From the NCBI RefSeq assembly GCF_024584705.1, contig NZ_CP097384.1, positions 4,960,001 through 5,024,000 on the forward strand: a stretch of DNA of 64,000 bases, in the 5' to 3' direction. Below, one piece after another: positions 6,404-52,134 of this stretch (position 1 is its first letter; each line of letters starts with the position of its first letter). Position numbers and translations under genes: made by a program. Origin of the DNA: Blastopirellula sp. J2-11 (GTDB taxonomy: Bacteria; Planctomycetota; Planctomycetia; Pirellulales; Pirellulaceae). Below the pieces are notes generated by a model. The model saw nothing but the letters and a program-made list of their open reading frames with translations. It did not search any database and was not told the DNA's origin.

Positions 6404-6418
6404 CTTCGTAGCCCGAGA
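6404..6418 (+). repeat. Short dispersed motif CTTCGTAGCCCGAG
   Basis: One instance of a motif (CTTCGTAGCCCG or its complement CGGGCTACGAAG) found in several intergenic gaps of this window: 6404, 6570-6584, 9327, 9580-9594, 18696-18710 and 31305-31319. It can form a small hairpin, CTTCG/CGAAG. It lies 12 nt upstream of the long inverted repeat at 6430. Confidence 0.5.
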
Positions 6419-6429
6419 CGCAAGTATCG

Positions 6430-6529
6430 AAATCAGCCGCACGGCGTTAGCCGCGGTTTTTTTGTCTCCCATTTTCCGTCGACAATCAGTTCCTGTCAGA
6501 AACCGCGGCTAACGCCGTGCGGCTGATTT
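6430..6529. repeat. Perfect 30-bp inverted repeat with 40-nt spacer
   Basis: The arm at 6430-6459 (AAATCAGCCGCACGGCGTTA followed by GCCGCGGTTT) is exactly complementary to 6500-6529. The 40-nt spacer contains no gene. It lies in the 311-nt gap 6374-6684 behind the DUF11 lipoprotein. It could work as a bidirectional terminator, because a T-run follows the left arm. Its length and perfection are more typical of a palindromic intergenic element. No copy elsewhere in the window. Confidence 0.75.
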
Positions 6530-6554: not shown

Positions 6555-6584
6555 TTTCCCTCGCTCGCGCTTCGGTCTACGAAG
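6555..6584 (-). repeat. 30-bp REP-like sequence, copy A
   Basis: TTTCCCTCGCTCGCGCTTCG with the next 10 bases, ending CTACGAAG, matches 18681-18710 at 28 of 30 positions. It combines a CCCTCGCT block, also seen in the long palindromic element, with the CGGGCTACGAAG-type end. It lies between two genes and codes for nothing visible. Confidence 0.6.
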
Positions 6585-7865: not shown

Positions 7866-9152
7866 CTAGCTTTGGAAACGTAGCAGTGCGTATTTCTTCT
7901 TGCCGCTCCGCAAAACCATGACCGTTTCGCTCGCCAAATCACGCTCCGTCAGCGCCTGGTCGACCCCTTCGGCGCGCACATTATTGACATAGGCGCCCCC
8001 CTGGCTAACGGCACGCCGAGCCTCGCCTTTGCTTTTGGCCAGTCCGGCTTCGACAAATGCGTCGAGCAGGCTCAGCCCGTCACCGGTCAGCCGATCGCGT
8101 GCGAGCTCGCTACTGGGGACGTCGGCGAAGATCTGGCCCAACTGGGCGTCATTCATGTCTTCAATCGTGCCGCCGAAGAAAATCTCGGTCGCTCGCTTGG
8201 CGATCGACAATCCTTCGGCGCCATGGATCAACTGCGTCAGATGTTCAGCCAGGCCTTTTTGGCTGGCGCGCTGATGCGGTTCTTCTGCACGCGATTTGTC
8301 GAGAGTCTCGATTTCTTCGTGGGACAGTTCGGTTAAAAATCGCAAGCACTTGCCAGCATCTTCGTCAGCGACGTTAAACCAGTATTGATAAAACGCGTAG
8401 GGACTGGTTCGTTCGGCCGAGAGCCAGATGGCGCCCGACTCGGTCTTTCCCATCTTCGTACCGTCCGCTTTGGTCAGCAGCGGACAGGTCATACCAAACA
8501 ACTGCTTCTGATGCATGCGGCGGCCCAACTCGGTGCCGGCGGTGATGTTGCCCCACTGATCGCTGCCGCCGATCTGCAGCTCGCAGTCGTACGCTTGATT
8601 CAAATGCACAAAGTCATACGCCTGCAGCAGCATGTAGCTGAATTCAGTGTAGCTAATCCCCGAGTCTTCTCGCTCCAACCGATTCCGAATGGAGTCCTTC
8701 GCCATCATCACGTTGACGGGAAAATGTTTACCGACATCCCGCAGGAATTCGAGATAGGTGAACTTGTTCATCCAATCAAAATTGTTAACCAACTGCGCGC
8801 CTTCCGGCGTCTCATCGAAGTCAACCAGCTTGGCGACCTGGGCTTTGATGCCGGCGACGTTTTTTTCGAGCTGGTCAACCGACAATAGATTGCGTTCGGC
8901 GCTTTTGCCGCTCGGATCGCCGATCATGCCGGTCGCTCCACCAACCAGCGCAATCGGTCGATGGCCCGCTTTTTGGAATCGCCGCAGTTGCATCAGCGGC
9001 AACAGACTTCCGACATGCAAACTATCGGCGGTCGGATCAAATCCGGCATAGACAGTCCGCGGCTTTTCGTTCAGCCATTTTTGCAGGTGATCGTCCGCCG
9101 TGGTTTGATAGACCAGTCCGCGCCACTTCAAATCGGCGAAAATATCGTTCAT
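7866..9152 (-). CDS. tyrS: Tyrosyl-tRNA synthetase
   Basis: Charges tRNA-Tyr with tyrosine using ATP in the cytoplasm. The 428-residue length is normal for a bacterial TyrRS. The class I HIGH-type motif is HVGS at residues 46-49, preceded by the tyrosine-pocket sequence YAGFDPTADSL. The KMSKS loop is KMGKT at 233-237. QIGGSDQWGN (about 193-202) is the expected substrate-binding block. The last 70 residues form an S4 RNA-binding domain (LLDAFVEAGLAKSKGEAR). The start at 9152 is preferred to an upstream in-frame ATG because GGAAG sits 6 nt before it and the protein then begins MNDIFADL, matching family length. All catalytic motifs are intact. Confidence 0.97.
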   Translation of the reverse strand: MNDIFADLKWRGLVYQTTADDHLQKWLNEKPRTVYAGFDPTADSLHVGSLLPLMQLRRFQKAGHRPIALVGGATGMIGDPSGKSAERNLLSVDQLEKNVAGIKAQVAKLVDFDETPEGAQLVNNFDWMNKFTYLEFLRDVGKHFPVNVMMAKDSIRNRLEREDSGISYTEFSYMLLQAYDFVHLNQAYDCELQIGGSDQWGNITAGTELGRRMHQKQLFGMTCPLLTKADGTKMGKTESGAIWLSAERTSPYAFYQYWFNVADEDAGKCLRFLTELSHEEIETLDKSRAEEPHQRASQKGLAEHLTQLIHGAEGLSIAKRATEIFFGGTIEDMNDAQLGQIFADVPSSELARDRLTGDGLSLLDAFVEAGLAKSKGEARRAVSQGGAYVNNVRAEGVDQALTERDLASETVMVLRSGKKKYALLRFQS

Positions 9153-9322
9153 CAGAAGCTTCCAGCAAGTGAAACGTCGCAAGCGGCCCAGCAGAATTCA
9201 GAGCCAAGGGGCCATTTTAGGTTCGCAGAGGCTCCAGGAAAAGGCGAGCCAATCGCCGGCAATAGGCCTGGTCGGCAAGAGACCACAATCCAAAGCTAGA
9301 ATTGTGCCGACCGAGTCACCAT

Positions 9323-9596
9323 TTCTCTTCGTAGCCCGAAACGCGAGTTTTAAGGTTTCGCTATTTCGAATCCATCGAACACTAGCCCGCCAGCGCCAGC
9401 GAGGGAAAGCGGCTCGCCACTTCAATCCGTGTTAGGATCGCCAACTCTATTCCCTCGCTGGCGCTGGCGGGCTAGTGTGACGATTTGCGGTTGATTCTGG
9501 CCGTATTAACGTCTTTCATTCGTGTTCGATCGTTCGTGAATTGCAAATAGCGCAACTCCAAAACTTCAAAACTGGCGTGTCGGGCTACGAAGAGAA
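9323..9596. repeat. Long palindromic intergenic element, copy 1 (MITE-like)
   Basis: A 274-bp non-coding element filling most of the gap between tyrS and ispD. Its ends are inverted: TTCTCTTCGTAGCCCGA at 9323-9339 is exactly complementary to 9580-9596, and similarity of the arms continues inward with a few mismatches. An inner palindrome has the arms CACTAGCCCGCCAGCGCCAG (from about 9382) and its complement ending near 9477, with a spacer of about 40 nt. A second copy in opposite orientation is at 39362-39608 and a partial one at 52016-52100. The right end touches the ispD stop codon. No open frame fits inside. Confidence 0.8.
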
Positions 9597-9598
9597 CG

Positions 9599-10288
9599 TC
9601 AGATCATCCCCAACGTCGCTTCCGCAATCACCAGATCCTCCTGCGTCGTGATCTTCCGATTCAACTGCGAGCCGGGGACGATCAGCACGCGGCGTCCCAT
9701 TTTTTCGAGCAATTGCGCATCATCCGTCACAGCTTCGGCCGTGCGGGTTTCGTACGCCGCGGAGAACCAATCGCGGCGAAAGACTTGCGGGGTCTGCGCT
9801 TCCCAGATTCCAGCCCGCGAGACGGTCTCTTGGATCGTGTGATCATCAAAAACCCGCTTGAGCGTTCCGGCGACCGGAGTCGCCAACATCGCCGCGCCAT
9901 GTTCGATCGCCGCGGCGAACACGTCGTCGATCAGGCGATCGCTGAGGCATGGCCGAGCCGCATCGTGAACGGCGATCATCTCGATAGCTTCGTCGATCAG
10001 CGCCAATGCGTTGGCGATCGAATCGCTGCGCTCGGCGCCTCCCAGCGCGATCGAAAGATGCAACCGTTCGATATCCGCCGCATAGTCTTCGCGGAACGAC
10101 GCTTCATCCTCGGGCGAGATAACGACGATTAACTGCCGCACATCGTCCCGCGCAGCGAAGCGTTCGGCGCTATGCAGCCAAACCGCTTTGCCCGCCAGAG
10201 GCGCGTAGACCTTCTTCTGTCGCGGATCGCCAAACCGCGTGCTGCGACCCGCCGCCGGCAAGATGACGCCCAAGTTTCTCACCGGCAA
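9599..10288 (-). CDS. ispD: 2-C-methyl-D-erythritol 4-phosphate cytidylyltransferase
   Basis: Third step of the MEP isoprenoid pathway: joins CTP and MEP to give CDP-methylerythritol. The 229-residue length is normal. The nucleotide-binding N-terminus is ILPAAGRSTRFG (residues 9-20) followed by the expected Lys near residue 26, and HDAARPCL near residue 105 is the family's metal/CTP motif. The gene starts 16 nt after the stop of the acyl-CoA dehydrogenase gene on the same strand, so they are probably co-transcribed. The palindromic element at 9323-9596 follows immediately and may help end or process the transcript. No odd features in the coding sequence. Confidence 0.95.
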   Translation of the reverse strand: MPVRNLGVILPAAGRSTRFGDPRQKKVYAPLAGKAVWLHSAERFAARDDVRQLIVVISPEDEASFREDYAADIERLHLSIALGGAERSDSIANALALIDEAIEMIAVHDAARPCLSDRLIDDVFAAAIEHGAAMLATPVAGTLKRVFDDHTIQETVSRAGIWEAQTPQVFRRDWFSAAYETRTAEAVTDDAQLLEKMGRRVLIVPGSQLNRKITTQEDLVIAEATLGMI

Positions 10289-18680: not shown

Positions 18681-18710
18681 TTTCCCTCGCTTGCGCTTCG
18701 GGCTACGAAG
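18681..18710 (-). repeat. 30-bp REP-like sequence, copy B
   Basis: Matches 6555-6584 at 28 of 30 positions (TTTCCCTCGCTTGCGCTTCG plus the end GGCTACGAAG). It lies between two convergent genes, 11 nt before the stop of the HEAT lipoprotein. Confidence 0.6.
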
Positions 18711-25342: not shown

Positions 25343-25423
25343 GGCAGGCCATGCCTGCCGAAATGCGTGGGCACGTTCATTTCTACTGGAGTTCTATCCA
25401 AGGGGGGCAGGCACGGCCTGCCC
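25343..25423. repeat. Two related short palindromes GGCAGGC-N3-GCCTGCC
   Basis: 25343-25359 reads GGCAGGC-CAT-GCCTGCC, and 25405-25423 reads GGGCAGGC-ACG-GCCTGCCC. They lie 46 nt apart just behind the S41 protease gene, the second touching its stop codon. The pair looks like a REP-type doublet and may also end the protease transcript. The rest of the 331-nt gap 25092-25342 shows no gene or other repeat. Confidence 0.65.
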
Positions 25424-31239: not shown

Positions 31240-31242
31240 AGA

Positions 31243-31301
31243 GAGAAAATGGGGTCAGGTCCCAATTCCGCAGCGGAATTGGGACCTGACCCCATTTTCT
31301 C
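31243..31301. repeat. Perfect 28-bp hairpin with 3-nt loop
   Basis: The arm 31243-31270 (containing AAATGGGGTCAGGTCCCAAT) is exactly complementary to 31274-31301; the loop is CAG. It lies between the DUF1501 gene and the end of rpsI. GGGGTCAGGT-type palindromes occur in the REP sequences of many bacteria, often mobilised by REP-associated transposases. No transposase is present here. CTTCGGGCTACGAAG follows at 31305-31319. Confidence 0.75.
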
Positions 31302-31321
31302 GGCCTTCGGGCTACGAAGAA

Positions 31322-39361: not shown

Positions 39362-39608
39362 GCGCCGTTTGAAGTTGCGCTATTTGCAATTCGCGAACGA
39401 TCGAACACGAATAAAGGACGTTAATACGGCCAGAATCAACCGGAAATCGTCACACTAGCCCGCCAGCGCCAGCGAGGAAATAGAGTTGGCGATCCTAACA
39501 CGGATTGAAGTGGCGAGCCGTATTCCCTCGCTGGCGCTGGCGGGCTAGTGTTCGATGGATTCGAAATAGCGCAACCTCAAAACTTCAACAGGCGCGTCCC
39601 AGCCTACG
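39362..39608. repeat. Long palindromic intergenic element, copy 2
   Basis: About 247 bp closely similar to the reverse complement of the element at 9323-9596, including the inner CACTAGCCCGCCAGCGCCAG palindrome (39452 onward and complement to about 39550) and the flanking GAAGTTGCGCTATTTGCAAT block. The outer ends have decayed: the right end reads CAGCCTACGGA instead of CGGGCTACGAAG. It fills most of the 464-nt gap before the metallophosphoesterase gene. Confidence 0.8.
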
Positions 39609-50003: not shown

Positions 50004-50438
50004 ATGAACGGCGACTCCGAAGCAGAAAAAAAGATCATCGTCGACTCGGACTGGAAAGAACAGGTCGAGCAAGAGAAGGAAAAACTACGCGCCGAAGATG
50101 CGCCCGAAGCGCCGCCAGCAGCGGAAGAACCGGCCGCCGCTGCTCCTTCCGACAACAGCGCCAAGTTTGATCCCAGCAAACTCCCGCCGCCCGATTTCCG
50201 GATGCTCATCTCGATGCTGGCCACCCAGGCCTTCGCCGCGCTGGGACAAATCCCTCATCCCGAAACAGGCCAAGCCATGGTCGAGTTGCCGCTGGCAAAA
50301 CACATGATCGACCTGCTGGGCGTGATTGACGAAAAGACCAAAGGCAATCTCTCGCCCGACGAAGCGGAGATGCTAGAACACGCACTGCACGATCTACGCA
50401 TGGGCTACTTTGCGATGTCGCAGCAAGCGCAGAAGTAA
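50004..50438 (+). CDS. DUF1844 protein
   Basis: 144 residues. The first 55 are charged and Ala/Pro-rich (KLRAEDAPEAPPAAEEPAAA). The DUF1844 core follows: PDFRMLISMLATQAFAALGQ, then IPHPETGQAMVELPLAKHMI and LLGVIDEKTKGNLSPDEAEM, a mostly helical domain found in many planctomycetes and other bacteria. No signal peptide. It lies 24 nt behind pyrG. Function unknown. Confidence 0.92.
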   Translation: MNGDSEAEKKIIVDSDWKEQVEQEKEKLRAEDAPEAPPAAEEPAAAAPSDNSAKFDPSKLPPPDFRMLISMLATQAFAALGQIPHPETGQAMVELPLAKHMIDLLGVIDEKTKGNLSPDEAEMLEHALHDLRMGYFAMSQQAQK

Positions 50439-50512
50439 GATCCTTTGGGCCATCCAACCATCTTCGGGTGACATTGCCACGGCCTTGCGTGGCAATGAAA
50501 GAGGTGAGATCG

Positions 50513-51955
50513 GTGAAAAAGGCATTTTCCTACCTGGTCTTTGCGTTGCTGATTTGTCGTGCCGTCTCGGCGGCGCCGCCCAACATCGTCTTTATCTTGG
50601 TCGATGATTTGGCATGGGCCGATTTGGGATGCTACGGACACGCATGGCATCGCACCCCGAACATCGATCGCTTGTCTGAAACCGGCGTGCGGTTCACCAA
50701 CGCTTATGCTTCGGCCCCGATCTGCTCCGCCTCGCGGGCAAGCATTTTGACGGGGAAAACGACTGCCCGACTCGGATTCGAGTTTGTCACGAAGAACGAG
50801 CCGGGAATTCAACAAGTCGATACGATCACGCAGCTTACAGCGCCGCCGCTGACCCTCAACCTTGCACTGGAAGAAGAGACCATCGCCGAGCGGATCGCTG
50901 CGTTGGGCTATGAGACCGCCTTCTTTGGAAAATGGCATCTCAATCAGCACCACCGTCGATATCTCGGCTGGAGCCCCAAGTTTGGCCCAGCCCAGCAAGG
51001 ATTTGAAGTCGCCGAGGAAGACTTCGGAGCGCATCCCTATGCTTGGGGCAAATCGCCTCCCCAGGCTGTCGATCAATCAGGGAAATTCGTCGAAGATTCG
51101 ATGGTCAAGCGGGTCTGTCGCTACATCGGCCAGCCCCATGAACGCCCTTACTTTGTGATGGCTTCGTCGTTTTACGTCCATACGCCGGTGAAGTCCCCCT
51201 ATCGTTGGCTATTGAAGCAGTATGCCGAAACGATACCTGCGGATGCTCCGAACCGGCAAAAGCGAATTGCCTACGCCGCCTTCCTGGAAACGCTGGATCA
51301 TCACGTCGGCCAGATTGTGAAAGCAGTCGAAGCGACCGAGGAAGCCGACAACACGCTCATCGTCTTCTTCTCCGACAATGGAGGCCATCCTGCGTACACC
51401 GCGAATGCGCCGCTTCGGGGTTCCAAGTGGAATCTCTACGAAGGGGGGATTCGCGCACCGTTGATCGCTCGCTGGGCCAAGAAAACCAAAGCCAATTCTC
51501 GCTGCGACGTTCCGGTCATCGGCTATGACTTGACGCCCACCTTTATCAACGCGGCAGGCGGAACGGCTACGCAAGCGGACGGCCGGGCAATCGATCTGGC
51601 GAACGTGGATTCACTCGCTTTGGAGCCGCGAAACCTACTGTGGCATTTTCCGTATTACCATCCAGAAACGGGATATGCGTCCGCATTGCCGGCCATCGGA
51701 ATCGATGATTTTGCGGTCAGCCAAACGCGCCCTCAATCAGCGCTCCGCCGCGGGAAATACAAATTGCTATGGTTTGCCGAGGACAAGCATGTCGAGCTTT
51801 ATGACCTGCAAGCCGACTTGTCTGAGCAAGTCGATCTAAGCCGACAACTGCCGGAGAAAACGTCCGAACTGCGGAAAGAACTGATGCGGACATTGCAGCA
51901 ACAGCAGGCCCGCATGGCGACTCCGCGTCTTCAGACCAGCAATCCCAATCGGTAA
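50513..51955 (+). CDS. Secreted sulfatase
   Basis: About 480 residues. GTG 50513 is chosen because AGAGGTGA stands 5 nt upstream and a clean signal peptide follows (KKAFSYLVFALLICRAVSA, cut near 20-21). The alkaline-phosphatase/sulfatase fold is clear: NIVFILVDDLAWADLGCYG with metal Asp31-Asp32, then the active-site block PICSASRASILTG with Cys71 to be changed to formylglycine. The usual Pro of C-x-P-x-R is Ala here. Later GKWHLN and FFSDNGGH give the other metal ligands. The substrate is probably a sulfated glycan from algae or animals (inference). Needs a formylglycine-generating enzyme, not in the window. Confidence 0.94.
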   Translation: MKKAFSYLVFALLICRAVSAAPPNIVFILVDDLAWADLGCYGHAWHRTPNIDRLSETGVRFTNAYASAPICSASRASILTGKTTARLGFEFVTKNEPGIQQVDTITQLTAPPLTLNLALEEETIAERIAALGYETAFFGKWHLNQHHRRYLGWSPKFGPAQQGFEVAEEDFGAHPYAWGKSPPQAVDQSGKFVEDSMVKRVCRYIGQPHERPYFVMASSFYVHTPVKSPYRWLLKQYAETIPADAPNRQKRIAYAAFLETLDHHVGQIVKAVEATEEADNTLIVFFSDNGGHPAYTANAPLRGSKWNLYEGGIRAPLIARWAKKTKANSRCDVPVIGYDLTPTFINAAGGTATQADGRAIDLANVDSLALEPRNLLWHFPYYHPETGYASALPAIGIDDFAVSQTRPQSALRRGKYKLLWFAEDKHVELYDLQADLSEQVDLSRQLPEKTSELRKELMRTLQQQQARMATPRLQTSNPNR

Positions 51956-52015
51956 CGACTCCTTTTAACCGATGGGCGGCACGGCGCCAAACCCGAAAAT
52001 TCAGATCTGACAAAA

Positions 52016-52100
52016 CACTAGCCCGCCAGCGCGAGCGAGGGAACAGGGCTGGCGATCCTAATACGGATTGAAGCGATGGGCCGCATTCCCTTGCTGGCGC
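52016..52100. repeat. Long palindromic element, copy 3 (partial)
   Basis: CACTAGCCCGCCAGCGCGAG from 52016, the spacer with GGCGATCCTAATACGGATTG, then CATTCCCTTGCTGGCG match the inner palindrome of copies at 9382-9477 and 39452-39550. The outer arms are missing and the right arm is shortened, so this is a remnant. Same orientation as copy 2. Confidence 0.75.
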
Positions 52101-52134
52101 ATTTTTGAAGTTAAGCTCCCCAACCATTCCAAAA

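Follow-up and report, generated by a model that had tools for sequence, protein, structure and literature searches.

The window analysed here is a 64-kb stretch of DNA (C1:4960001-5024000) from the 6.43-Mb single-contig genome of Blastopirellula sp. J2-11 (G000), and positions below are numbered within it unless the contig is named. Between the tyrosyl-tRNA synthetase gene (tyrS; 7866-9182, minus strand) and ispD (9599-10288, minus strand), both assigned from open reading frames (ORFs) and Pfam matches, lies a 274-bp palindromic sequence. The 17 bases at its ends (9323-9339 and 9580-9596) are exact complements, as a sequence-only reading of the same DNA had reported, and are part of outer arms of 36 nt (9323-9358 and 9561-9596) that are 89% complementary. 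The long inner palindrome described in that reading also proved real, with arms of 29 nt that are 100% complementary; the longest perfect inverted repeat in 9200-9700 measures 29 nt, compared with ≤12 nt in 60 single-base shuffles. It was likewise correct that no frame lies inside: no ORF of at least 30 aa falls entirely within the 274 bp, and the three ORFs that overlap the element extend beyond it. Its parts are as follows:

9323-9347, plus strand: outer left REP, consisting of a foot (TTCTCTTCGT) and a half REP (AGCCCGAAACGCGAG), placed by the inverted repeat; the alignment with Blastopirellula marina extends to 9347, within the REP
9379-9478, no strand: inner REPIN, 100 bp, with arms at 9379-9407 and 9450-9478
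9479-9563, plus strand: right-hand linker module, which adjoins the inner REPIN in many copies (matches spanning approximately query positions 55-241)
9580-9596, minus strand: outer right REP foot, the complement of 9323-9339; the B. marina alignment restarts at 9587

The REP cores of the inner REPIN are at 9384-9405 (plus) and 9452-9473 (minus), and the outer right foot stops 2 bases short of the ispD ORF. The 274 bp are the extent of one composite copy and not one transposon; the modules that recur are the inner REPIN of ~98-100 bp and the outer REP ends. The composite is an inner REPIN nested inside a probably older outer REP pair.

At the same slot, B. marina DSM 3645 (G002) has a lone 37-bp REP, CTCTTCGT-AGCCCGCAGCGCGAGCGAGGG-ACGAAGAG, whose own foot recurs in inverse after the REP. 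We saw no REP at this slot in the congeners G003 and G001, where other palindromes are found (by eye). The single REP of B. marina could be a deletion product, and the difference at this slot may reflect either a gain in the J2-11 lineage or a loss from B. marina. Inspected by eye, the tyrS-ispD gap (9183-9598) contains a palindrome in all four genomes of the genus, with three families represented.

A palindrome at this place in every genome, two of them from unrelated families (by eye), might be expected of a host regulatory structure under selection, such as a bidirectional terminator or an mRNA-stabilising hairpin after ispD. The position directly past the end of the ispD ORF would fit such a structure, as would the strong fold of the whole inner REPIN (-71 kcal/mol as RNA, -44.6 kcal/mol as DNA). 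However, there is no terminator-like site within the element (one nearby, where 1.0 is expected) and no Rfam match at the gathering score, and it is unrelated palindromes that take its place in the relatives; we therefore consider a host function unlikely. A terminator or promoter in the element was also sought, and nothing exceeded expectation. Rfam gave two weak matches to microRNA models, far under the gathering score, which we ascribe to chance similarity with a long hairpin.

Copies and modules in the genome

In a search of the J2-11 genome with the 274-bp query, 40 of the 214 candidates were scored. Motif counts over the same genome gave 109 matches to the exact outer foot YTTCGTAGCCCG (2 for the reversed pattern), 180 to CACTAGCCCG (25 for the reversed control) and 125 exact matches to the REP core GCCCGNNGCGCNAGCGAGGG (none reversed). 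Allowing up to 3 substitutions, we counted 22 cores in 464 kb, made up of the window and 20 evenly spaced stretches of 20 kb each, and 3 in the same sequence reversed. Further copies with shared ends, on which the sequence-only reading depended, are thus present, and related genomes match too.

The layout of a REPIN is a foot, a REP (AGCCCG-NN-GCGC-N-AGCGAGGG), a GAATGCG-like spacer, an inverted REP and a second foot. There are two types of foot: ACACT-AG in the inner unit, which has CTAG, and TTCTTCGT-AG in the outer unit, which has GTAG. Scored as exact 8-mers, both types occur in 23 of the 40 loci fetched, CTAG only in 16 and GTAG only in one. The inner-type REPINs (n = 47) are uniform in size, 45 being 94-101 bp, one 102 bp and one 136 bp; these loci were picked by similarity and with exact feet required, so that conservation of the foot in this set arises by construction. 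The composites are mosaics, because the modules flanking the inner unit recur as well.

Elsewhere in the window, we located the following REP-related sites:

39368-39584, minus strand: second composite copy (95% identity, E 6.1e-96); the B. marina slot has a plain REPIN within 140 bp
52016-52100, plus strand: partial inner REPIN with a REP core (at 52020), left foot intact, right foot lost
6404-6415, plus strand: outer-type foot CTTCGTAGCCCG, which together with the core at 6558-6578 encloses a second palindrome family
6558-6578, minus strand: REP core with 1 substitution
18684-18710, minus strand: REP carrying an outer foot; at the orthologous slot, B. marina has a composite whose interior differs
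31308-31319, minus strand: outer-type foot adjoining an unrelated palindrome; at the orthologous slot, B. marina has a plain REPIN

The first two had already been picked out from the sequence, as a copy in opposite orientation and a fragment, and both were borne out. The fragment falls at the end of a 1.7-kb stretch (50437-52132) without a B. marina counterpart, the start of which resembles a secreted sulfatase (by eye).

Other palindromes accompany these sites. The second family (AACCGCGGCTAACGCCGTGCGGCTGAT), at 6432-6528 between two outer-type REP ends, has 5 matches with ≤4 substitutions in the 20 stretches of 20 kb. A long palindrome with GGGGTCAGGTCCC at 31242-31300 lies within a REP slot that is a plain REPIN in B. 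marina; it resembles the GGGGWSAS motif described for TIRtrons (PMC3733652). A palindromic insert of GGCCATGCCTGCC type at 25345-25423 is without a B. marina counterpart. The REP family forms tandem arrays at L039, L175 and L176 (periods of 174 and ~260 bp), and at L056 (G000:C1:1238133-1238550) a copy has a piece of an IS200-like gene remnant on either side. At L042 and L037, another palindromic element (AGCGCTTTTCAGC ... AAACCGCT) is found at a CTAG within an inner REPIN or its flank (by eye); thus elements of different families also nest.

The target-site duplication that the sequence-only reading had proposed to look for did not materialise: an abutting direct repeat is lacking in 21 of 23 outer elements, and the other two have a 2-bp match. 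Two-base direct repeats at inner junctions are more frequent (26/47, compared with a mean of 18.2 and a maximum of 26 in 500 shuffles), and we did not accept these as target-site duplications because nested copies have flanks in common. We also discarded the idea that units insert at the centre of long symmetric palindromes, as the flanks of isolated inner REPINs are asymmetric past the ~5-base foot. The terminal inverted repeats, gene-free interior and many copies are what one would expect of a MITE derived from a classical DDE insertion sequence with short terminal inverted repeats and no relation to REP systems. Its target-site duplication is missing, however, the ends are REPs with a foot, and a Y1/HUH gene is present in units that share these ends (see below); we rejected this origin as highly improbable. 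The original suggestion of a MITE or a REP/BIME unit was therefore right in kind, i.e. there are many copies, shared ends and a candidate enzyme elsewhere in the genome, but a single element with 17-bp ends did not stand.

Orthologous slots and the possible origin of nesting

A comparison of G000 with B. marina covered 402 and 400 kb, respectively, of which 344 kb was chained. There were 81 synteny gaps of >25 bp, 28 of them with a loose REP-core match in either genome. We inspected 15 of these 28 and two others, and then the remaining 13; the counts refer to elements in gaps between aligned blocks. Among the remaining 13, one gap has this REP family in B. marina only and one has the second family in both genomes. 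Of the slots inspected first, 12 carry this REP family in G000 (by eye); REP-like sequence of the family is also present in B. marina in 7 of them, often with a changed interior, and was not seen there in 5.

These slots bear on the main rival explanation for nesting, in which recombination, gene conversion or replication slippage among pre-existing REPs, rather than transposition of the inner unit, produced the composite. Hairpins would stall the polymerase and template switching would then exchange interiors while the outer feet stay. The 7 of 12 slots that are REP-like in B. marina too, several with another interior, agree with this, as does the existence of the tandem arrays. So does the match between the two arms of a unit at the two bases after AGCCCG, which agree in 15 of 23 outer pairs (7.5 expected; 0 of 2000 shuffles reached this) and 27 of 47 inner pairs (15.4 expected; 1 of 2000 shuffles reached 27), in shuffles that ignore the kinship of copies. 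When simple outer REPINs (n = 4) were taken alone, the excess of arm matches was not seen. Against recombination, 5 of the 12 slots are without this REP family in B. marina, the inner REPIN is sharply bounded and uniform (45/47 at 94-101 bp) amid diverse flanks, and it borders a transposase gene. We regard recombination as a serious though not the favoured account; it may also act alongside transposition in nesting.

A candidate Y1/HUH enzyme and units that carry its relatives

The Pfam Y1_Tnp profile marks 8 places in the J2-11 genome. The tnp gene L064 (C1:4474388-4474876) lies between two 99-bp inner REPINs that are 98% identical to each other, so that a unit resembling the inner REPIN of the composite borders the gene on either side. 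No tnp gene bordered by the outer foot type was seen in G000. The L064 protein has the motifs HVH and Y----Q; in a 24-row alignment HuH and Y are conserved and Q is nearly invariant (in another alignment, the match ends before the Q of Y----Q in 3 of 9 rows). Of 8 family proteins scanned, 6 are above the Pfam Y1_Tnp cut-off, L065 is slightly below it and L074 is unmatched. A PDB sequence search with a 5-row profile gave nothing at E 0.1, and a fold search was therefore needed. AlphaFold (AF2) predicted a Y1 fold for L064 (pLDDT 93), with which Foldseek retrieved ISDra2, IS608 and the RAYT 4er8 (E 3e-5 to 1e-4, TM ~0.5). Against the NCBIfam models, L064 scored 30 bits with transpos_IS200, below the cut-off of 55, and gave no match to REP_Tyr_transpos. 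L064, encoded elsewhere in the genome, is the likely mobilising enzyme of the composite.

The divergent relative L074 (C1:2136650) is bordered by repeats of the AACCGCGGCTAACGCCGTGCGGCTGAT family kind, which suggests a second enzyme-repeat pair.

In the congeners, L065, L068, L069 and L072 form compact units, 634-815 bp in total, with the gene enclosed by REP arms of 33-41 nt. A full transposon with the same ends, which the sequence-only reading had recommended searching for, is represented by units with a Y1 gene, and those of the genus differ from one another. G000 itself has a 225-bp element (L077/L177) that runs from ACACTAG to CTAGTGT with both ends kept and retains parts of both ends of the tnp gene, the middle being missing. 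This is an internal-deletion derivative of a coding element with REP-family ends, a derivation established for L077 and not for the 274-bp copy.

The slots of these units differ in history. The L064 locus is at the same position in B. marina, where the gene is broken into two frames. For the L065 unit of G003, no counterpart was seen in the stretches inspected at the same slot of G000, G001 and G002, and the unit is best read as an insertion. The L069 slot is occupied in all four genomes, by a tnp-bearing unit in B. marina, a single REP in G000 and REPINs in G003 and G001. In G000, it seems that a tnp-bearing ancestor lost the sequence between its 55-bp direct repeats; as this would account for the difference, we dropped the reading in which L069 had inserted cleanly in B. 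marina with respect to G000.

When the genome collection was scanned, 289 relatives of the enzyme came up, of which the best 80 were kept. Among these 80, three are titled just 'bacterium' and the rest have planctomycete names, counting certain genera, e.g. Candidatus Kuenenia, that we take to be planctomycete. Inverted arms (score ≥16) surround the gene at 57 of 76 loci with enough flank and are missing at 19, whereas controls drawn 700-1050 bp from the gene have them in 2 of 68. Mismatched locus pairs give a few arm scores of up to 21, because REPs resemble one another. Arm and protein distances correlate (Mantel r 0.562, 0/2000 permutations), a result that would also arise from shared descent alone. 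The feet are CTGA in some relatives (L122, L144) and CTAG/GTAG in Blastopirellula. The 57 loci offer many enzyme-repeat pairs for in vitro recognition tests.

The 274-bp query matched 9 of 40 genomes (its own included), with best E values in the congeners of 5e-51 (G002), 7e-18 (G003) and 1e-7 (G001). The last is no stronger than the match in G038 (1e-6, 29 matches), from another family of the same order; G013, G021, G035 and G039 have 1-3 weak matches each. Among 119 genomes of the family, 20 have exact REP cores, 47 have TnpA and 12 have both. The 35 TnpA-bearing genomes without an exact core are as expected if REPs diverge. Eight sampled genomes have at least 10 exact cores, and TnpA was found in six of these, with no match in G041 and G130 (up to 31 candidates scored per genome). 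REP number and enzyme do not always coincide, which counts against the explanation that we favour.

Interpretation and relation to known systems

Our preferred explanation, to which we give a probability of roughly 0.8, is that the 274-bp sequence is a nested REPIN, i.e. a BIME-like composite, of a REP family probably mobilised by a class-3-like Y1/HUH enzyme. By analogy with IS608 and TnpA-REP (Corneloup et al. 2021), movement and cleavage are most likely the work of the Y1 enzyme. It would bind the hairpin that the REP forms in single-stranded DNA, such as the lagging-strand template, recognise the foot as well, nick there and move REP-spacer-REP units in trans. The outer REP, also in B. marina, would be the older, and would later have come to hold a younger inner REPIN in the J2-11 lineage. 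Some observations weigh against this explanation. Compensatory changes in the inner stem are few, with both sides changed in 3 of 28 pairs (46 aligned rows), and the simple outer REPINs (n = 4) lack the arm excess. Single REPs make weak DNA hairpins. Of 5 units folded as DNA, 2 have the expected stem as their best fold, the inner REP folds into a variant of it, and L160 and L065 fold otherwise.

More tentatively, and with more doubt than confidence, we suggest that the genus may preserve, still active, an intermediate stage on the way from an IS200-like transposon to a domesticated RAYT/REPIN system. Mobile compact units, an internally deleted derivative and a fixed tnp gene between two full REPINs, with many more in trans, would be its stages, sharing one REP code. 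New units might land preferentially on existing REP hairpins, building up onion-like composites in which the interior changes and the outer feet remain. Since a single genus of conserved gene order contains these proposed stages, each slot can be examined for insertion, deletion and nesting.

Parts of this picture have precedents. The sequence-only reading held that such an element had not been named for planctomycetes. This is too broad, as Di Nocera et al. (2013, PMC3733652) reported GTAG REPs from Planctomycetes and more than one REP family, in fact several, from R. baltica, and the class 3 TnpA-Y1 enzymes with repeated flanking structures are described as principally from Planctomycetes, Acidobacteria and Proteobacteria (Quentin et al. 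2018, PMC6006769). For the Blastopirellula family, the papers listed in our literature search included none that names it, nor any that demonstrates activity of a class 3 enzyme. Planctomycete REPs and class 3 enzymes are already published; that search turned up no mention of this family, its compact units, its deletion derivative or its nesting as read from slot to slot.

The MITE model shares with this system an internal-deletion derivative (L077) of a coding element with the same ends, and differs in the missing target-site duplication. IS200/IS605 elements (IS608, ISDra2) are similar in predicted fold, catalytic residues and the lack of a target-site duplication. Unlike them, L064 falls under the NCBIfam IS200 cut-off, the inverted REP arms are long, and the tnp-bearing units vary within the genus. 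The outer unit, with GTAG followed by CCC...GGG, resembles the GTAG-tagged REPs as described in PMC3733652, whereas the inner unit has CTAG.

REPIN/RAYT systems (class 2 TnpA-REP) likewise have two inverted REPs and a spacer as the repeated unit (here 47 inner REPINs) and REPINs beside a single tnp gene, whose position is conserved (L064 and B. marina). Their 5' foot is GTAG or GTGG; here it is GTAG in the outer and CTAG in the inner unit. In contrast to class 2, which has Y---NP, the enzyme here has Y----Q, and there is onion-like nesting. Compact arm-tnp-arm units persist in the Blastopirellula congeners as well, whereas Bertels and Rainey (2011, PMC3116915) describe RAYTs as apparently incapable of self-mobilisation; in their account, the origin of REPINs from transposons and the present mobility of the transposase are left open.

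The best fit for L064 is the rare group that Quentin et al. (2018) describe as class 3 TnpA-Y1, a comparison made by published description. That description gives a Y----Q signature, hairpin structures around the gene and a CnGA foot, presents class 3 as possible evolutionary intermediates and calls for experiments (PMC6006769). The feet here are mostly CTAG/GTAG-like and not CnGA, with CTGA in some relatives. By the same description, the system matches class 3 in Y----Q, HuH, planctomycete distribution and hairpin-like repeats flanking the gene, in the high copy number of the repeats and in combining features of both an IS and a REPtron.
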